A stretch of 64,000 nucleotides of DNA from Hippea alviniae EP5-r (lineage in GTDB: Bacteria; Campylobacterota_A; Desulfurellia; Desulfurellales; Hippeaceae). The notes beneath the pieces are model-generated. The model searched no databases. It was not told where the DNA came from and was given only the letters and a program-made list of their open reading frames with translations. The stretch is from positions 682,001 to 746,000 of the forward strand of contig NZ_ATUV01000001.1 of the NCBI RefSeq assembly GCF_000420385.1, given 5' to 3'. The position numbers and the translations under genes are program-made. Positions 33,398 through 63,462 of this stretch are shown here, one piece after another. Numbering within the stretch: the first letter of the stretch is position 1; each line of letters opens with the position of its first letter.

Positions 33398-34221
33398 TGC
33401 AGGCGACCTATGATAAGCTTATTCTTCTCAATAAGCGGCAAGTATATTTTATCTTTCGAAACGAATATATCAGCTGCAGGTGTATTCAACTCTTTTACTA
33501 TTTTGTATTTTTTTAATGTTAAATCCGTCTGTATAATCTTTCCGCTTCTGTAATCTGAGATAAACAGCTTATCGCCCAAAAGCGATATACCATCAAAACC
33601 CGTCAAACCCTTGAATGTTATACTCTTCTTTAACTCACCAGCTAAACTGATAAGGCTAATAGTTGGACTATTAAATGATACAACGGCAAATACATTCTGC
33701 TTTTTTATGAAAATAATACCATTTGGCGAGAAATTATCCTTTTTAAAAAACAGAGACACCTTACCCTTCTTGTCAACCTTGTATATGCAGTTATTGACCG
33801 TATCGGTTATATAAGAGACTCCATTCAGAACAACAATATCATTTAGAAACTTAGAGCCTTTAATGTCTATGCACTTTGTCTTTGTGCTCGTCAAATCGGC
33901 TATACACAATCTATTTAAATCTGCAATGTAAAGCTTGTTATCAAAAGGATATATACCCTTTGGTGCCTGAAGATTGTCAATAAACTTAAACTCCAATATA
34001 TTACCGTATTTATCAAGCTTTGTAATAAATCCATCCTTATTTGGTGAAACAGGCGAGTTTCCAATGTTTGACACATAGATATAATTGCCGTAAGGATACA
34101 CGCTTTCTGGATGATGAAGACCTACAATTTCACCTTCTTCCATAAACTTAAAACTGCTCAAAACCACCAAAACCAATAGAGCTATAAGAACCAAAACCTT
34201 CTGGCTTTTCAGAAATGACAT
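33394..34221 (-). CDS. Membrane-anchored or exported NHL/YncE-like beta-propeller protein
   Basis: A 275-aa protein with an N-terminal hydrophobic segment (VLVLIALLVLVVLSSF) and then repeated four-stranded blades of the form ...YGNYIYVSNIG..., DNKLYIADLNRL, LNGVSYITDTVNNCIYKV and LGDKLFISDYRSGKI, as in NHL or SMP-30-type propellers. Such proteins bind ligands or act as scaffolds; no catalytic residues can be named. ATG 34221 is chosen because it overlaps the ABC gene end by 13 bp and gives a clean signal anchor. The role is unknown. Confidence 0.72.
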   Translation of the reverse strand: MSFLKSQKVLVLIALLVLVVLSSFKFMEEGEIVGLHHPESVYPYGNYIYVSNIGNSPVSPNKDGFITKLDKYGNILEFKFIDNLQAPKGIYPFDNKLYIADLNRLCIADLTSTKTKCIDIKGSKFLNDIVVLNGVSYITDTVNNCIYKVDKKGKVSLFFKKDNFSPNGIIFIKKQNVFAVVSFNSPTISLISLAGELKKSITFKGLTGFDGISLLGDKLFISDYRSGKIIQTDLTLKKYKIVKELNTPAADIFVSKDKIYLPLIEKNKLIIGRLQ

Positions 34222-35048
34222 CTTACAAACCTGTCGTTTCTCTCTTTCAGTGGTGGTTGTTCTGTTTTGCACTTCTCTTCTGCTTTAGGGCAGTTTAAAT
34301 AGAAAGGACAGGCATACTCCCTTTTTGCTTCTATTTCGCTAAACCTAAAATCTTTATAATGCATATCAATCTTGGGAACAGAACCAAATAAAAAACGCGT
34401 ATATGGGTGAGTTGGAGCAAGTTTTATCTCTTCTATGCTGCCCATCTCAACGATTTTACCGTCAAACAGAACAACAAGTTTACCATCAAATGCCAACATC
34501 TCAACATCATGTGTTATGAATATAAGCGTAATATTGTCTGTTCTGTTTAGCTCTTTTAGGAGATTTACAACCTTCATTTTCGTCATGCTGTCAAGAGCAC
34601 TTGTAAACTCATCTGCCAGTATAATTTTAGACTTCAAAAGCGCAGCAGCTATAAGAACCCTTTGTCTCATACCACCACTTAGGTTATGTGGGTATGAGTC
34701 AAGCACATACTCAACATCTTCAAAACCAACCTTTCTAAGCGTCTCTTTAATCTTATCTAAATCACTTTCTATCTCAAGAAGCTGCTCTCTTATCTTAAAG
34801 AGTGGATCTAAGGAGTCTGTAATATTCTGTGGAATCAGGCCTGTATCTTCATCTATTGATACTTCTCCTTCAAATCTCAATGGGTAAAATCGCCACATTC
34901 CACTGATTATTCTTGCAAGTGTGGTTTTACCTGCACCTGATTCTCCAACTATAGCCCACACATCACCCTTTTTCACATTTAGCCGTATATCTTCAAGAAC
35001 CTTCTTATCATCGTAATAGGCTTCTTCTATGTTTATATTACATACCAT
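34209..35048 (-). CDS. Peptide/nickel-type ABC transporter ATPase (DppD/NikD-like), unaccompanied
   Basis: A 279-aa ATPase: Walker A GESGAGKTT, Q-loop LIPQNITDSLDP, signature NLSGGMRQRVLIAAAL, Walker B ILADEFTSALD and switch ITHD. The C-terminus has the oligopeptide-transporter (oligo_HPY) extension with THPYTRFLFGSVP and Cys pattern CPFYLNCPKAEEKC...C, resembling the Fe-S-associated tail of DppD. No permease, binding protein or second ATPase is adjacent, which is unusual for this family. It overlaps purE by 11 bp. Confidence 0.88.
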   Translation of the reverse strand: MVCNINIEEAYYDDKKVLEDIRLNVKKGDVWAIVGESGAGKTTLARIISGMWRFYPLRFEGEVSIDEDTGLIPQNITDSLDPLFKIREQLLEIESDLDKIKETLRKVGFEDVEYVLDSYPHNLSGGMRQRVLIAAALLKSKIILADEFTSALDSMTKMKVVNLLKELNRTDNITLIFITHDVEMLAFDGKLVVLFDGKIVEMGSIEEIKLAPTHPYTRFLFGSVPKIDMHYKDFRFSEIEAKREYACPFYLNCPKAEEKCKTEQPPLKERNDRFVRCHF

Positions 35049-35508
35049 TGAGTTTTCTTAACTCATCTTCTTCCTGCTTCGACCTTCTCTTAAGCTCTTC
35101 TCTTAACTTCTCGTTATTCAAAGCAAGCATTCTTAAAACAAACAGAGCGGCATTTTTTGCTCCCTTTTTGCCTATTCCAAATGTCGCAACAGGAACGCCT
35201 CTTGGCATTTGAGCTATAGAAAACAGTGCATCAAGTCCAAGCAAATCACTTGCAACCGGCACACCAAGAACAGGTTTTTGAGTGTGGGCAGCTATAACGC
35301 CAGGTAAGGCAGCTGAAAGGCCAGCAATCACTATAGCCGCATCAAACTCCCTATCTATTATCTCTGCCACTTCTTTTGTTAAATTTGGAGACCTATGCGC
35401 AGAAGTTATAAATGTCTTGTTCTCTATTTCATACTCATCAAGCACACCCTTTGCAGCATCCATTATCTCTTTATCCGAAACGCTTCCAGCAACAATAGCA
35501 ACTCTCAT
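35038..35508 (-). CDS. purE: Phosphoribosylaminoimidazole carboxylase / N5-CAIR mutase PurE
   Basis: A 156-aa purine biosynthesis enzyme. It has the phosphate-site GSVSDKEIM, the catalytic SAHRSP and PVLGVPVASDLLGLDALFSIAQMPRGVPVA. The usual GGAAHLPG loop is the shorter AGLSAALPG, similar to the archaeal-type AGLAAHLPG but with the His replaced by Ala. PurK is not in the window, so the substrate (N5-CAIR versus AIR plus CO2) is not settled. GGGG lies 8 nt before the ATG. Confidence 0.92.
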   Translation of the reverse strand: MRVAIVAGSVSDKEIMDAAKGVLDEYEIENKTFITSAHRSPNLTKEVAEIIDREFDAAIVIAGLSAALPGVIAAHTQKPVLGVPVASDLLGLDALFSIAQMPRGVPVATFGIGKKGAKNAALFVLRMLALNNEKLREELKRRSKQEEDELRKLNGM

Positions 35509-35518
35509 AACAATACCC

Positions 35519-36358
35519 CTAAAGTTTTATCAACTGTTCTATCTTGACATTGGCATCCTGAAGCGTATTGACAATCTTTATAATTGTGCTCAAAAGCTCA
35601 TAAATCTTTACGATTCTTGCTGTCAAATCATCTATAACTTCTGCATGCTCATTTATAGCAAGACTGTTTTCATTCAACGACTCTGCTATATCATTTGACT
35701 TCTCATTTATTTTTAAGAATATCTCAGCAAAGTCATTAAAATCCTTTCTCAACTCATCGAGAAACTCTTTAACAGATTCGACTTTCTCAACGGTTGACAT
35801 CAGCTTTGCGTTAAAATCGTAAAGAATCTCCTGAATATTATCCGTTATATTGTCTGTCTTATTTGCAAGCTTTTTAATCTCGTCTGCAACGACGGCAAAA
35901 CCCTTACCGGCTTCACCTACCCTTGCAGCCTCAATGGCAGCATTCAAGGCAAGAAGATTCGTCTGTTTTGCAATATCAGATATACTGCTTGCGGCTTTGT
36001 TTATATTCTGTGTTATCGTCGTTAAACCCTTGATGCTTGCGACAAACTCATCAACTTCACTCTTCCTATTTTCAACTTCTTCGTTGCGCTCCATTACCCT
36101 GTTTGAGATATCGTTTATATTGAGATTAAACTCTTCAAAGTCGCTGTTGATTTTTGAGACATTCGTTGCCATACCCTTTAGGTTGCCTTCCATCTCTTCC
36201 AACGATGCAGAAAATGTCTTCATCTGGTCTTCTAAAAACTCAATGTCGTTTGCTATTATTTTAAAGCTCTCGATTGTTGCTGTTGAAACAAATGAGCTTT
36301 TTACAACACCCTTCGATAGCTTTCGTATGGCGTTTGCAGTCTTGCTATTCTCCTTCAT
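35519..36358 (-). CDS. Transmembrane-free methyl-accepting chemotaxis-type receptor
   Basis: A 279-aa coiled-coil protein without membrane segments or a recognisable ligand domain. It has the MCP signalling hairpin tip [32 protein letters not shown] that binds CheA/CheW. ATG 36358 is chosen because AGGTGA lies ~6 nt upstream; a GTG at 36367 overlapping the previous stop is the alternative. Immediate coupling to a di-iron ODP-like gene suggests that protein supplies the sensory input. Confidence 0.9.
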
Positions 36359-36363
36359 GGCTA

Positions 36364-37146
36364 TCACCTGCTTATCTCGTCTATTATATCAGCACCGCAT
36401 TTGAGATTATTCAACCAATTCAGGAACATATCGACAGCTTCAAATCTAAAGACAGCTCCGTGCTGTGGTGCAAGCATCTTTGGTGCAAGGCTTCTAATTT
36501 TATTCACATAGTATCTGCATGCGTTAGAAGATGCCATATATCGTTTATGGAACCCTTCCATTAAATTTATATGACTGTTGAAGTTATCCTTATCAACAAA
36601 CAGATACTTGTTTGTATCGCTAAATACTGCAGCACCTATGTCTCCATTAAACAGAATCTTAGAGATAGGGTCAAACACTATAAGATTGCCAGGAGCATGA
36701 AGGAAATGAGCTGGTATAACTTCAAGCTCTCCAACCCTTCCACCAGAGTCAGGCAAACCCTTTATTCTTGACAAGTCCGTAATTCCAAAATGCGGCAAGA
36801 ATCTTACCCAAAGCTCTGATATGTAAACATTTGCATTGGTAACAGAAAGCCACATAGGAATACCAGAGCTGACATCTGGGTCTTGATGTGAGAAGAATAT
36901 ATACTCTATGTCGTCTAAATCTATATACTTCGTAACATTCGAGACAACCTTTGGAAATATGTGAATACCACCTGGATCAAGCAGAGTTCCCTTTTTACCG
37001 TGAACTATCAGATACTGGTTTGTCTGAATCAGTCCATCTTCAAGCCTGCCCCACCCAAGCCAGACAAACTTATGCTCTCCATCATCATATAATAATTCAC
37101 CATTCTCTATATCCACATCGGCATTTGACTTCGTGCAGTATTCCAT
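36364..37146 (-). CDS. ODP-like di-iron metallo-beta-lactamase-fold protein (putative oxygen/iron sensor)
   Basis: A 260-aa flavodiiron-type MBL-fold protein without flavodoxin or rubredoxin domains. Candidate metal ligands are H87, D89 and D91 (FSHQDPD), H150 (FLHAPGN), D169 (LFNGDIG) and H229 (APQHGAV), matching the H-x-[E/D]-x-D...H...D...H set of the family. In Treponema denticola an ODP of this kind works with a soluble chemoreceptor as an O2/Fe(II) sensor; the gene here is likewise followed by one. GGAGG precedes ATG 37146. O2 reduction as a plain enzyme is an alternative role. Confidence 0.85.
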
Positions 37147-37182: not shown

Positions 37183-37211
37183 TTGATAACATAAGGATAA
37201 ACGAAAGTCAA
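37183..37211 (-). promoter_or_regulatory. Promoter of the ODP-MCP operon
   Basis: On the minus strand TTGACT (37206-37211), a 17-bp spacer and TATCAA (37183-37188), ~37 nt before the ODP start. It lies in the 75-bp gap after gadB and probably drives the long downstream gene run. Confidence 0.55.
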
Positions 37212-37221
37212 CGAGAATTGC

Positions 37222-38610
37222 TTAACATATTTTGTTATGAATCTGGGAACTTTTCTTTTTTTGTGGTGCTCTAACAATACACTCACCCTTTATAGTATCA
37301 ACTGCTCTTTTCAAATCCCCTATTAACATATCAGCCATGTCCCTACTAAAGTTTTCTTTAACAACCACTCTCAAGATATGCATATCTTCGGCATTCTTAG
37401 GTAAATTATAAGCTGGCACTATCCAATCCCTCTCTCTTAGCTTTCTTGAAACTTCATACACGCTTATCTCATTATCAATGGAGTAGAAAGTTACAACAGG
37501 AAGTTTCAAGTCTTCATGAGTTAGCTTAAAAACACTCATCTTTCTTATCTCTTTTGCAACATATTTTGCATTTTCCATGCATGTTTTCATTATGGCTTTA
37601 TACCCGCTCTTGCCCAACCTTAGCATATTGTAGTATTGTGCTATCACCATAGCACTATTTCTCGAAAAGTTTAGTGTGTAAGTTGCTTCTTCACTTCCAA
37701 GATAATTAACATAAAATATTAAATCTTCTGGTAAAAATTCTTTATCCTTAAATATTAGCCAACCCACACCAGGATATACCAAACCATATTTATGACCAGA
37801 TACATTTATAGATTTCACCTGATTCAATCTGAAATCCCATTCCATATTAGGATATAAAAATGGCACTATAAACCCACCACTTGCAGCATCAACATGTATC
37901 GGTATATCTAAACCTTTAGCACTCTTTAAATCCACCAGCATCTCGTTTATCTCTTTTATTGGATCTATCTGACCTGTGAACGTAGTTCCAAGTACAGCTC
38001 CAACACATATCGTATTTTCATCTATCAGTTCTTTTGTCATTTCAACATCCATTGTATATCTTCCATGCTCCATAGGAACAAGCCTAAGCTCAACATCAAA
38101 GTACTTAGCAAACTTCTCCCACACAACATGGACATCAGCACCAACTACCAGATTGGGCTTTGTTGTATCTTTACCTTCCTTCTCTCTTCTTTTTCTCCAA
38201 CTCCACTTATGAGCTAAAAGCCCAAGCATTATCGCTTCAGAAGAGCCTATTGTAGATGTTCCAACATAGTCATTTTTTTCTGGAGCATTAAATAGTTTAG
38301 CTAACATATTAACTACTCTCTCTTGAATTACGCCTGTTTGGGGATACTCTTCTTGGTCAACCAAATTTTTGTTTATCGTCTCCATTATCAACTTTTCCGC
38401 CTGTGGTTCCATCCACGTAGTAACAAATGAAGCCAAATTCAAAAAAGGATTACCGTCAAGATTCATCTCATCATGTATAAGTTGATAGGCCACATCTGGC
38501 CCTATCCCATTATTTGGTATCTCATATTTTGGTATTGGCTCTGAAAACGCCCTGTTAGCATAAGTAGCAGAGACTTTGGCTCCTCTTTTTCTTCTTTTTC
38601 TTGAAAGCAT
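37222..38610 (-). CDS. gadB: Glutamate decarboxylase
   Basis: A 462-aa PLP enzyme converting glutamate to GABA plus CO2, consuming a proton. Strong family landmarks: [50 protein letters not shown] and the PLP lysine in [18 protein letters not shown] 38610 follows GGGAGG by 8 nt; an upstream TTG (38619) is less likely. No glutamate/GABA antiporter gene is nearby. It lies 15 nt after the LutBA fusion gene and so is the last member of the oxidation operon. Confidence 0.94.
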
Positions 38611-38625
38611 TACAAACAACCTCCC

Positions 38626-40740
38626 TTATTTTGATATAAAAATATATTTTTCAAACAGCTCTGAGATATGTATTACCTCTATTGGCAAATCTCTCTTTTC
38701 TATCCCACCTTTTATCTGAATCATGCATCCTGGACACTCCGTTACAACAACATTAACATTTGTAGACTTTATGCTTTTTATTTTTTTGTCAAGGATAGAT
38801 GCCGATATTTCAGGATGGTCTATAGAAAAACTACCACCAAAACCGCAACATCTATCTGAATCTGGCAACTCAACAAACGCATCTTCCAATATCTTACGCA
38901 AAAAACTATCAGCAGAAAACCCAAAGCCCCTAATTTGATGACATGGAGTATGATAAGTGAATTTCTTATTTTTATCTGCTTTTACTTTCACTCCTAAATC
39001 TTTAATAAACTCTGAGAACATCCTCAGTTTACTCACTATCTGATTAGAAACTCTATAAATCTCTGGTATATCGGCCACCATATCTGGAAACTTTTTTATC
39101 ATAGAGCCACATGTCGGACACAACACTACATAACTATCGTAATCAGAAGGAGTATTCATATATTCTAAAGCCTTTATTACGCTCTTTTTTGCACTTTCTT
39201 TATCTCCTGAATGCAAAGCCGGAAATCCACAACATACGCTTGATGTAGGTATATCAATAGCTATATTCATTCTAACCAACAACTTAGCCATCGATATACC
39301 TACATCAGGATACAAAAATTCTATGGCACACCCAGGATAAAAAAACACTCTTTTTTCTGGATTCTTTGGGTTTTTTATCTCCTTTTTGAACCTTTCACTA
39401 AATGTCTTTTTGCTTATTTCCGGCAATTTCCTAAAGTTATACTTATCTGGAAGCAGTTTATCCTGCCTTGATGTTTTTAAAATCAAGCTTCCTATCTTAG
39501 CTGCACCCTTTAAATTCACAGGTTTAGATAAAATTGAAGAGAAGAGAAACTTTTTTGCAGGATTTATTCCATATTGCTCTGCTAAACCTACATTGAGTTT
39601 CTCTATCAAACCTTGAATATCCACTTTTGCTGGACATATATCATTACAAGTTTTACAACCAGCACACAGACTAAGAAGGTCCTTTGTATCACCCGTAGGG
39701 TGATACAAAGTTGTAAGTATAAGACCTATGGGACCTGTATAAATCTTCCCAAAAACATGCCCTCCTACAACTCCATAAACAGGACACACATTGGCACAAG
39801 AACCACACCTTATACATTTGAACGCCTCTTTAAGTATAGAATTATTCAAATAATTTAACCTACCATTATCAACAAATACAAAATGTAGCTCTTTTTTTCC
39901 ACTTTCGGAAGCTAAAGAGTTCAAAGCCCCCTTTATCCAACTAACATAAACAGACATAACTTGACCAGTAGCATTCTTCGGCAAAACCTTTAGGATTTTC
40001 AAAGCATCATCAAAACTTCCAACTAATTTTTCGTATCCCAGTACCACTATATGAACTGGTGGTATGGTAGTGACGAGTCTTCCGTTCCCTTCATTGGTGA
40101 CTATTCCTATAGTTCCTGTCTCCGCTACTGCCACATTTGCACCGCTTATTCCCACCTTAGCCCTAAAGTAGAACTCCCTTAAATAATTTCTCGCTATACT
40201 AACCATTCCTTCTATATCATCCTCATCTACTTCTACATTCAGATGTTGTTTAAACAATTTAGCTACTTGCTGCCTATTTTTGTGTATTGCTGGCATAATC
40301 ATATGCGAAGGGGTTTCTCCTGCAAGCTGTATAATCCATTCTCCTAAGTCGGTTTCGACAAGTTTCACTCCATTGCTTTCTAAATATTTATTTAAGCCTA
40401 TCTCTTCGGCAGTCATAGATTTTGACTTTACAACATGCTCCGCATTGTGCTTCTTGCAAACGCTTAGAATGTATTCGCAGGCATCGACCGAGTTTTCGGC
40501 TTGATAAACCTTAGCACCTGTCTTTTCAACTTCTTTCTTAAACTTTTCAAACAGTTCACCGATTTTATCCGCATTCCTAATTCTCAGGCTCGATACTTCT
40601 TCTCTAAGCTTTTGAAAACTTAAACCCTTATACGCTTTGATTTGGGCTTCCTTGTAATTATGATAAAATGTTTCAAGATTATTACCAAGAACACTATCTT
40701 TTATAGAATTTTCTATTTTCTCTTTTAATCTCTTGTGCAT
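38626..40740 (-). CDS. LutB-LutA fusion: Fe-S subunit of a lactate-oxidising complex
   Basis: A 704-aa protein (from ATG 40740; a GTG at 40752 overlapping the lutC stop is possible). Residues ~60-290 are a LUD domain (TAEEIGLNKYLES, VAVAETGTIGIVTNEGNGR). Two 4Fe-4S clusters follow (CIRCGSCANVCP, CAGCKTCNDICP), then two CCG domains (SVCCGFPALHSGD; CPGC...; DRCCGFGGSFS) characteristic of LutA/GlpC/LldE. In Bacillus LutA and LutB are separate; here they are one polypeptide. It sits between lutC and gadB. Confidence 0.9.
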   Translation of the reverse strand: MHKRLKEKIENSIKDSVLGNNLETFYHNYKEAQIKAYKGLSFQKLREEVSSLRIRNADKIGELFEKFKKEVEKTGAKVYQAENSVDACEYILSVCKKHNAEHVVKSKSMTAEEIGLNKYLESNGVKLVETDLGEWIIQLAGETPSHMIMPAIHKNRQQVAKLFKQHLNVEVDEDDIEGMVSIARNYLREFYFRAKVGISGANVAVAETGTIGIVTNEGNGRLVTTIPPVHIVVLGYEKLVGSFDDALKILKVLPKNATGQVMSVYVSWIKGALNSLASESGKKELHFVFVDNGRLNYLNNSILKEAFKCIRCGSCANVCPVYGVVGGHVFGKIYTGPIGLILTTLYHPTGDTKDLLSLCAGCKTCNDICPAKVDIQGLIEKLNVGLAEQYGINPAKKFLFSSILSKPVNLKGAAKIGSLILKTSRQDKLLPDKYNFRKLPEISKKTFSERFKKEIKNPKNPEKRVFFYPGCAIEFLYPDVGISMAKLLVRMNIAIDIPTSSVCCGFPALHSGDKESAKKSVIKALEYMNTPSDYDSYVVLCPTCGSMIKKFPDMVADIPEIYRVSNQIVSKLRMFSEFIKDLGVKVKADKNKKFTYHTPCHQIRGFGFSADSFLRKILEDAFVELPDSDRCCGFGGSFSIDHPEISASILDKKIKSIKSTNVNVVVTECPGCMIQIKGGIEKRDLPIEVIHISELFEKYIFISK

Positions 40741-40748
40741 CTTATCCC

Positions 40749-41225
40749 TCACAAATCTTTAACTATAAAAATTTTCATAGATTTAGGACCATGAACACCC
40801 AGAGTTAAAAACATCTCTATATCGGCCGTTCTACTTGCTCCTGTTATAAAAACAGCATAAGAACCACCATCTTTTGAAGTTATATCTTTTAAAATACTGG
40901 CTGCATCCTCCATTCTTCTCACGATACGAGACGCAGGTAAGATAACATGTAAATCATCACACAAAGCTGTAGCCCTTCTATACTCCTCTGAATCCTCGCA
41001 CAGAACCACGCTTCCAGTTTCAGCTATACCCAAACACGCCTCAACTATGGTTCTGTCTATGCCTTCTTTTTCAACAATTTTTATTGATTCCAAATTCAAG
41101 GAAGGTATATGTATAAAATCATAATGATTCTTTTCCAAAATACTACCCACATCTACTCTTTCCACTATCTTATTATCATTGCCAACAAGTTTTGAGAATT
41201 CCATAAACAGCTCAATTTCTTCCAT
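40749..41225 (-). CDS. lutC: LutC-like LUD-domain protein
   Basis: A 158-aa short LUD-domain protein: EACLGIAETGSVVLCEDSEEYRR and TADIEMFLTLGVHGPKSM are the LutC-type strands. It starts 14 bp inside the glcF-like gene and overlaps the LutBA gene (GTGA). LutC is the third component of the LutABC L-lactate oxidation complex. Confidence 0.88.
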   Translation of the reverse strand: MEEIELFMEFSKLVGNDNKIVERVDVGSILEKNHYDFIHIPSLNLESIKIVEKEGIDRTIVEACLGIAETGSVVLCEDSEEYRRATALCDDLHVILPASRIVRRMEDAASILKDITSKDGGSYAVFITGASRTADIEMFLTLGVHGPKSMKIFIVKDL

Positions 41226-42459
41226 TTAACCTCTCCTTTAGTAGCTGCTTGTATATAGTTTCTATCGGGTGTTTAACTTCCACGTTTAATGAGTTTTCAG
41301 AAACCAAGTCGGTAAACTGCATTACGCACCCAGGACAAGGTGTATACAAAACATCGTATCTCTTTATCTCATTCAGCTTTTTACTTCCGACCTCTCTTGA
41401 TGTTTTATTATGTTTAAGCCTGAAAGTCCCTCCGAACCCACAACAACTCTGATTTTTTAAGGGTTTTAGATTCTTTGAAACACTTTCTTTCAAAAAATCT
41501 ATCATTACACTATCTTTTGAATGCTCATAATGGCACGGCACATGCAGGGTAGAATTTTCACTGTTAGGGTTTATTTTTACATTCAACACCTCTTTTAAAA
41601 AGACAAGCACATCTATCATTCTCTGCCTTATCTTTCTGTCTGTAACCCTAACTCCTAAATCGGACAAACCCCATTGACATGTTGGACATGCCGTTATTAT
41701 GTAATCTGCATCATTTATAGAGTCAAACCAATCGAAATTTCTTTCAACCATGGTTTTATATAAATCCATATCTCCCATAGTTGCAGCAGGTATTCCACAA
41801 CAGTTATTTACTTTCGGAACATATACAGATACCTTAAACATCTTTAAAGTCTCAACTATAGCTTCTCCCCATGAAGTGTAAACATAGTTTATGGCACACC
41901 CAGGATAGAATATTACTCTCATTTTTTCATTTTTTGCTTTATTTAATCCACCATACATCTTTGTGAACGATACCGATTTTATGTTTTTCACATTAATCTC
42001 TATAGGAATCTTAAGCTTTCTTGTGCTTTCATCAAGCTTAGATGAGATCAAACGCATACCTACACTCACTGTTGGCTGAATACTCTCTACAAAATTGGGT
42101 CTATTCATCGCTGTCTTTAGAAAAATCTTTTGAGACACTGGTAGTTTATCTATTCTTCTTAGAACACTTTTAGCTCCAACAAATATCTCATCCGTCTTCA
42201 CACTGCTTGGACAAAATCTTTTGCATCTACCACACAATATGCAATAATCTAAATATTTAATAGCTCCTTTGAGACTATCTAGCCTACCTTCGTATATAGC
42301 CTCAATAAGCGAAATTTTGCCTCTTGAGACGGATTGCTCCAATCTATCTTTTTCATAAAGCGGGCAAACAGACTGACATATACCACACTTCATGCACTGA
42401 AGTGTAAGTTCTTCTAATTCCTTTAACTCTTTAACTATTTTTTTAAGCGAAAGAATCAT
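41212..42459 (-). CDS. Fe-S subunit of glycolate/D-lactate oxidase (GlcF-like)
   Basis: A 415-aa protein with two N-terminal 4Fe-4S motifs (CMKCGICQSVCP and CILCGRCKRFCP, residues ~20-75) and two C-terminal CCG domains (NNCCGIPAATMGD, QSCCGFGGTFRL, with CPTC and CPGC companions). This is the GlcF layout, passing electrons from the FAD subunit encoded just upstream (glcD-like, ATGA overlap) to a membrane carrier or to a partner such as the LutBA protein. Substrate (glycolate, D-lactate or another 2-hydroxyacid) is not readable. Confidence 0.92.
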   Translation of the reverse strand: MILSLKKIVKELKELEELTLQCMKCGICQSVCPLYEKDRLEQSVSRGKISLIEAIYEGRLDSLKGAIKYLDYCILCGRCKRFCPSSVKTDEIFVGAKSVLRRIDKLPVSQKIFLKTAMNRPNFVESIQPTVSVGMRLISSKLDESTRKLKIPIEINVKNIKSVSFTKMYGGLNKAKNEKMRVIFYPGCAINYVYTSWGEAIVETLKMFKVSVYVPKVNNCCGIPAATMGDMDLYKTMVERNFDWFDSINDADYIITACPTCQWGLSDLGVRVTDRKIRQRMIDVLVFLKEVLNVKINPNSENSTLHVPCHYEHSKDSVMIDFLKESVSKNLKPLKNQSCCGFGGTFRLKHNKTSREVGSKKLNEIKRYDVLYTPCPGCVMQFTDLVSENSLNVEVKHPIETIYKQLLKERLNGRN

Positions 42460-62284: not shown

Positions 62285-63462
62285 AACTTAAAAACCTCTA
62301 TGGTTCTTCTCAATGAGTCAACCTTACTTACGAGCTCAGCCAATCCGTCTTTTATCTTCTCTATTCTCACCGATACATCTTCAATAGCCGCAATCTTGTT
62401 TACATTCTCTTCAACATAATTCATGACAGACGATAACTCTTCTACCTCTTCAAAGAATGAGAGCAACTCCCTATAAACATCGTTCATATCAGCCTGAAGA
62501 AACCTTGTCTTCTCCATCAAGTTTTCGCTGTTTTTTCTGCTCTTTTCTGCCTTTTTTATTGCTGTTTCCATGATTTTGTAAAAATCTTCAGACATGTTTA
62601 CAAGCTTAGTTATCACTTCCCTTATATTTGAAGTTGAGAAATGCGTTTTTTCAGCTAATTTTCTCACTTCATCGGCAACAACGGCAAAACCACGACCAGC
62701 TTCTCCAGCTCGTGCTGCTTCGATTGCAGCATTTAAAGCGAGTAAGTTTGTTTGATCTGCAATCTCATCTATTACAAGCACAGAATCCACTACAAGATTT
62801 ACAATGTTTTTTAGTTGTTCAACATCTTTTTTCATCTCATAAAACGAAGCAGAAAAACTGCTAACATCGTTTAGATTGTTTTCTATCAAATCAAAACTCT
62901 CATTGAATGTATTATTTGACCTTTCAAGCTTTTTTCTAACAATATCAAGTCTGCCACCAAGTTCAGAATACACTTCATTTAACCTACTTACAGACTCTTT
63001 AACCTGACGGGAATAGTTTAAAGCATCAACCGATACACCTTTTATAGACTCAACATCGTTCTCTACTTCAGAAGACAAAGAAAATACAGATAATATAAGT
63101 TCAGATGTGCGTTTTATAACGCTTTTAAGAGTTTCTATGGCTTTATTAAAATTCCTTGCAAGCAAGCCTATTTCGTCTTTAGATAACAAAATCGACTCAT
63201 CTTCTATTTTTGAAGTCAAGTCTTCACTCTCTATCTTTTTTACCACAAAGCTCATATTGCTGAGTTGTTTTAAGATCGTTATCTTTGTTATGTAAAAACC
63301 ACTAAGACCAACAACAATCCCTGCCACTACACAACTAATATCAAAAATAATCCCGTATCCATCTTTTACATCAACAAAAAAAGAAGCAAATATGGGGAAC
63401 ACAATCCCCATACCTATTCCAAAGCTCACCATATAAATAAACAGCTTTTTTGTATAACTCAC
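62281..63462 (-). CDS. Membrane-bound methyl-accepting chemotaxis protein with minimal sensor region
   Basis: A 393-aa receptor with two N-terminal membrane helices ([19 protein letters not shown] and [19 protein letters not shown]) separated by only ~10 residues, so there is no periplasmic ligand domain. A HAMP-like region follows (~65-125), then a signalling domain with [19 protein letters not shown] and [21 protein letters not shown]. Start GTG 63462 with AGGG ~8 nt upstream. It sits between fba and pgi. The input signal must come from the membrane, HAMP or a partner protein. Confidence 0.92.

Follow-up and report, generated by a model that had tools for sequence, protein, structure and literature searches.

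An ODP and a membrane-free chemoreceptor as a putative cytosolic oxygen/iron sensing pair in Hippea alviniae

Introduction

The oxygen-binding di-iron protein ODP serves as an oxygen sensor in Treponema denticola, where it is genetically coupled to an MCP that has neither transmembrane segments nor a sensor domain and is able to modulate CheA (PMC7666581). Loss of ODP changes the order of CheA in T. denticola arrays (PMC7666581). Cryo-tomography of T. denticola revealed no fixed position of ODP in the array (PMC7666581), which counts against a chemosensory reading of the pair described here. ODP is described as an auxiliary sensory subunit that binds both iron and oxygen (PMC6978683). ODP-MCP operons in two gene orders, together with other signalling operons and fusions, are catalogued in PMC7319448.

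ODP-MCP systems are among the few chemoreceptor systems that sense via a separate metalloprotein and not via a domain of the receptor. Muok et al. reportedly found such pairs in eight phyla in 2019. Here, we analyse an odp-mcp pair in the window, a stretch of 64,000 nucleotides from Hippea alviniae, a thermophilic anaerobic bacterium. The genome (1.75 Mb, 99.6% complete) contains 11 MCP genes. Both genes of the pair lie at the coordinates given in the original prediction, on the minus strand.

Results

An ODP orthologue with a complete putative di-iron site

36364-37146, minus strand: odp, MBL-fold ODP of 260 aa (ligands H87, D89, H150 / D91, D169, H229)

The odp product matches the Pfam ODP family (PF19583) over the whole profile (1-194/194), with E=4e-71 and 239 bits against a cut-off of 27.2. 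The broader Lactamase_B model also matches (3e-15). The domain search returned these two families alone; as originally claimed, neither a flavodoxin nor a rubredoxin domain was found in the 260 residues. A phmmer search of solved proteins retrieved the ODPs of T. maritima (6qrq, 8e-95) and T. denticola (6qnm, 3e-87), and flavodiiron proteins ranked below both, at 1e-7 or weaker. An AF2 model was built from 23 aligned relatives (pLDDT 90.4, pTM 0.90). The best ten Foldseek matches of this model in the PDB are ODP chains throughout, with E from 8e-36 to 1e-29 and TM from 0.82 to 0.92. They comprise T. maritima 6qwo and 6qrq (about 55% identity) and T. denticola 6r9n, a ‘peroxy diiron species’, and 6qnm (about 50%).

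All six members of the proposed metal set, namely H87, D89 and D91 of the HQDPD motif, H150, D169 and H229, are present and invariant in the alignment of 23 ODP sequences (A1), so that none is lost in close homologues. H147 and H119 are likewise invariant in this alignment. The Asp at the second ligand position had been presented as a departure from the usual Glu. This view had to be given up, and the residue was dropped as a novelty: Asp is the norm of the ODP family, being found in both solved ODPs (6qrq and 6qnm) and in almost every HxDPD homologue retrieved. Among the aligned homologues, another residue occurs at this position only in two sequences of flavodiiron length, which carry HAEQD and HNESD. 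As judged from these alignments, Asp at ligand 2 sets ODPs apart from flavodiiron proteins and is not peculiar to the Hippea alviniae genome. By sequence and by predicted structure, the product of 36364-37146 is an ODP orthologue with a complete putative di-iron ligand set.

A soluble MCP with a canonical signalling tip

35519-36358, minus strand: soluble MCP of 279 aa from ATG 36358 (MCPsignal, hydropathy, conserved ATG, 15-sequence alignment A2)
36364-36369, minus strand: Shine-Dalgarno sequence AGGTGA of the MCP, overlapping the odp stop codon (sequence and junction conservation in relatives)

The MCP frame can also be opened at GTG 36367, giving 282 aa and the ‘GTGA’ overlap with the odp stop codon that had been pointed out originally. 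The overlap is indeed there in the sequence, but it is probably not where translation begins. AGGTGA sits 5 nt before ATG 36358. Close relatives likewise have an ATG, a few codons beyond the GTG position, with AGGTGA or a similar sequence at good spacing, whereas comparison of the odp-mcp junctions shows that the GTG is not conserved and is absent in relatives whose odp stop codon is TAA. Given that only ATG 36358 is conserved, a start at GTG 36367 is unlikely. The MCP most likely starts at ATG 36358, with AGGTGA as its predicted ribosome-binding site.

MCPsignal (E=8e-34) is the sole convincing domain of the soluble MCP, and no ligand or sensor domain was found in the domain search. The protein is also devoid of a hydrophobic stretch. 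Its maximum KD19 is 1.31, as compared with 2.1-3.3 in nine of the ten other MCPs of the genome; the tenth (L053) has a maximum of 1.18. The absence of membrane helices and of a ligand domain, as first proposed, was thus confirmed. Another MCP in the window (62383-62838; ORF of about 396 aa) has one hydrophobic segment near its N-terminus.

The hairpin tip, a segment of 33 residues, is almost the same as in the genome’s transmembrane MCPs, with no gap in the alignment. By this comparison, the soluble MCP is a receptor hairpin with a canonical, intact CheA/CheW-binding tip. AF2 modelling of the MCP gave long helices only, with a low pTM of 0.39, and the model was not used further.

Conservation among 15 MCP orthologues peaks at the tip (about 127-175) and at a second level about 90 residues away from it, formed by both arms (43-66 and 225-256). 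The N-arm patch contains a stretch of 10 residues and faces a stretch of 11 residues on the other arm. The strict methylation-site pattern is absent from the soluble MCP across the 15 orthologues, and a relaxed pattern that allows N at the ends is found in 15/15. A canonical methylation motif was rejected, since only the relaxed version is present.

Neighbouring genes and a probable promoter

35038-35508, minus strand: purE (TIGR01162), after a 10-nt gap downstream of the MCP gene
34209-35048, minus strand: ABC transporter ATPase of oligopeptide type, downstream neighbour (Pfam/NCBIfam)
37183-37211, minus strand: probable sigma-70 promoter of odp-mcp, TTGACT-N17-TATCAA (orthologous upstream regions compared by eye)

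The original prediction set the pair upstream of purE and an ABC ATPase. The two neighbours are confirmed, and purE is probably in one transcription unit with odp-mcp. Unlike the linkage to the MCP, however, this linkage is local to the genus. Both genes adjoin odp-mcp in the same genus only, where the arrangement corresponds to a purE-ABC-NHL-tgt operon, and purE was not found beside the pair in sister genera where the flank is long enough to show it. It is doubtful that purE is functionally linked to odp-mcp. A functional link to purE and the ABC ATPase as a general feature was rejected, as the linkage is limited to the genus.

By eye, a TTGAC(A/T)-N17-(TA-rich) element can be seen 5’ of odp throughout the Hippea family, even though the upstream genes differ, and it is missing where the pair follows cheA in a che operon. 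This distribution therefore suggests that odp-mcp has a promoter of its own, at 37183-37211. A sigma-70 consensus scan did not exceed the level of shuffles plus 1.5 sd, and the site at 37183-37211 was not among its matches.

The gene upstream of odp (37222-38619) reads like a glutamate decarboxylase/PLP enzyme. Further upstream, 38626-42459 encodes lactate-utilisation-like iron-sulphur proteins.

Conservation of the odp-mcp linkage

We surveyed 25 genomes of the phylum. A close odp orthologue is present in 16 of them, counting the window itself; the others have 63-81% identity. In the Hippea/Desulfurella lineage an MCP gene adjoins odp in 16/16 orthologues and in three genomic contexts, so that, as the original prediction required, the linkage is conserved outside this genome. 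The closest named loci belong to Hippea sp. and other Desulfurellales. In the tree, the 16 MCP-linked orthologues form one clade (support 100/99). ODP paralogues from the same genomes (39-50% identity) are without an MCP and form a separate clade (support 100/100). One MCP-free paralogue (G006:C58:45205-45899) looks broken, split between two frames with an internal stop, whereas the MCP-linked copy is intact.

The pair also occurs beyond the phylum, in Aquificaceae. MCP linkage was seen at half of 28 further ODP loci from a second centre (14/28), mainly in Aquificota-like relatives; two of the 14 loci without MCP end at a contig end. Linkage labels are clustered on the ODP tree, with 4 changes versus 16.6 in shuffles, a difference to which near-copies contribute. 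One locus from outside the phylum (L105) is MCP-linked in the 28-locus count and solo in the tree labelling, where a stricter pattern applied; the conclusion is unaffected. On this comparative evidence, odp and mcp stay together while their surroundings change.

Some relatives show other neighbours. In L033-L035 and L037, odp-mcp is divergent from a gene reading like msrA (methionine sulfoxide reductase, with a GCFWC motif). In the Aquificales loci L038, L039 and L041, the pair adjoins genes that read like potassium uptake (Trk-type).

The chemotaxis machinery

A single CheA was located in the genome (L062). The CheW-domain search retrieved only CheA, CheW and CheV, all in a single cluster, which reads cheA-cheW-cheV-cheX-(239 aa, no Pfam hit)-cheY and does not contain odp-mcp. 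One convincing CheR and one CheB were found, and FliM is present.

The Desulfurella-type cluster (L063:4264-11376) reads cheA-odp-mcp-cheW-cheV-cheX-(241 aa)-cheY. Three Desulfurella-type genomes have the pair at this position, and the whole cluster is visible in G016. Gene by gene, this cluster and that of Hippea alviniae show identities of 51% for CheA, 51% for CheW, 58% for CheV, 61% for CheX and 81% for CheY. By gene order and identity, the two che clusters are orthologous and odp-mcp is the insertion in the Desulfurella-type one. This placement of odp and mcp, flanked by cheA and cheW, provides genomic evidence for the kinase that they serve. Because one CheA was located and the receptor tip matches, the soluble MCP most likely joins the array of this sole located CheA and reports to it.

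A possible second ODP output

An ODP-GGDEF fusion of 582 aa is encoded in the same genome, outside the window (L064:4330-6078, minus strand; around G000:C1:233367-234044). The ODP part matches at 4e-62 and the GGDEF part at 5e-50. Relatives have ODP proteins of 585-612 aa at the identity level of this fusion. These findings suggest O2/iron control of c-di-GMP.

Discussion

The pair very likely senses O2/Fe(II) in the cytosol for chemotaxis, as an ODP-MCP unit like that described in T. denticola. The argument draws on sequence, on the structural model and on homology. It upholds the original reading as a cytosolic oxygen/iron chemosensor: the family assignment and the ligands stand, as do the association with a soluble MCP and the parallel to T. 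denticola, and the insertion of the pair into the che operon of relatives is added to them. The fold is not in itself proof of chemotaxis, because ODPs elsewhere are also solo or fused to other outputs.

If it works like its orthologues in T. denticola and T. maritima, this ODP would load two Fe(II) and bind O2 as a peroxo adduct. Peroxo-ODP would then change conformation and act on the MCP. The MCP would in turn alter the activity of CheA and, via CheY, flagellar switching. In an anaerobic type of host, the likely outcome would be O2 avoidance, and possibly iron seeking too.

ODP might instead be a flavodiiron-type enzyme that scavenges O2 or NO, and its gene would then be no more than a neighbour of the MCP gene. 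Both protein families share the fold and the ligand positions, and the divergent gene of some relatives reads like the oxidative-repair gene msrA. However, ODP has no flavodoxin or rubredoxin domain that would supply electrons, a separate protein of about 400 aa and thus of flavodiiron length (G000:C1:815925; assigned by length alone) is available for that role, and the MCP linkage holds in 16/16 orthologues across three contexts, the che operon among them. We consider scavenging improbable. Still less probable is bound zinc, which would make the protein a hydrolase or a zinc sensor acting via the MCP. The ligands follow the carboxylate-rich di-iron pattern HxDxD...H...D...H and not the HxHxDH of zinc hydrolases, and structure 6r9n shows a T. 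denticola orthologue in the form of a peroxy di-iron species; this outweighs the MBL fold and the crystallised zinc form of T. maritima ODP (6qwo). Finally, although the pair in Hippea alviniae has moved out of the che operon or never entered it, the strong conservation of the ligands, of the MCP tip and of the second MCP patch (43-66 facing 225-256), together with the retained probable promoter, leaves hardly any room for a remnant that no longer signals to the array.

Within the preferred reading of the pair as a chemotaxis sensor, we tentatively propose that one ODP sensor type feeds both chemotaxis (ODP-MCP) and c-di-GMP (ODP-GGDEF), and that the methylation-helix-like MCP patch serves tuning by CheR/CheB or docking of ODP. 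This combined scheme is possible but on the doubtful side.

Altogether, odp-mcp is here a genuine and well-supported case of an already known system, and of low surprise. What the locus adds is the placement of the pair within the che operon of the sister family, the split from MCP-free paralogues, the second conserved level of the MCP and the coexistence with ODP-GGDEF. Thermophilic ODP, MCP, CheA and CheW could suit reconstitution experiments addressing the docking site of ODP.

Comparison with known systems

Flavodiiron proteins (FprA, ROO, flavorubredoxin) have the MBL fold and the ligand positions in common with Hippea alviniae ODP, with TM 0.60-0.72 by query length. This ODP differs from them in having neither a C-terminal flavodoxin nor a rubredoxin domain and, like ODPs generally, in carrying Asp at ligand 2 where they have Glu. 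The ODP-GGDEF fusion of the same genome shares an ODP sensor domain with HQDPD, but its output is a diguanylate cyclase domain instead of an MCP, and it is only about 24-28% identical to the MCP-linked ODP. T. maritima ODP (6qrq, 6qwo) is the closest solved relative, with about 55% identity over the full length, TM 0.85-0.92 and the same HQDPD and other ligands; no structural difference from the Hippea alviniae model was found. The T. denticola pair (ODP TDE2498 and MCP TDE2496; 6qnm, 6r9n) shows about 50% identity, the same six ligands and a partner MCP without transmembrane or sensor module. It differs in the type of host, and in Hippea alviniae the MCP gene immediately follows odp and appears to share an operon with purE.
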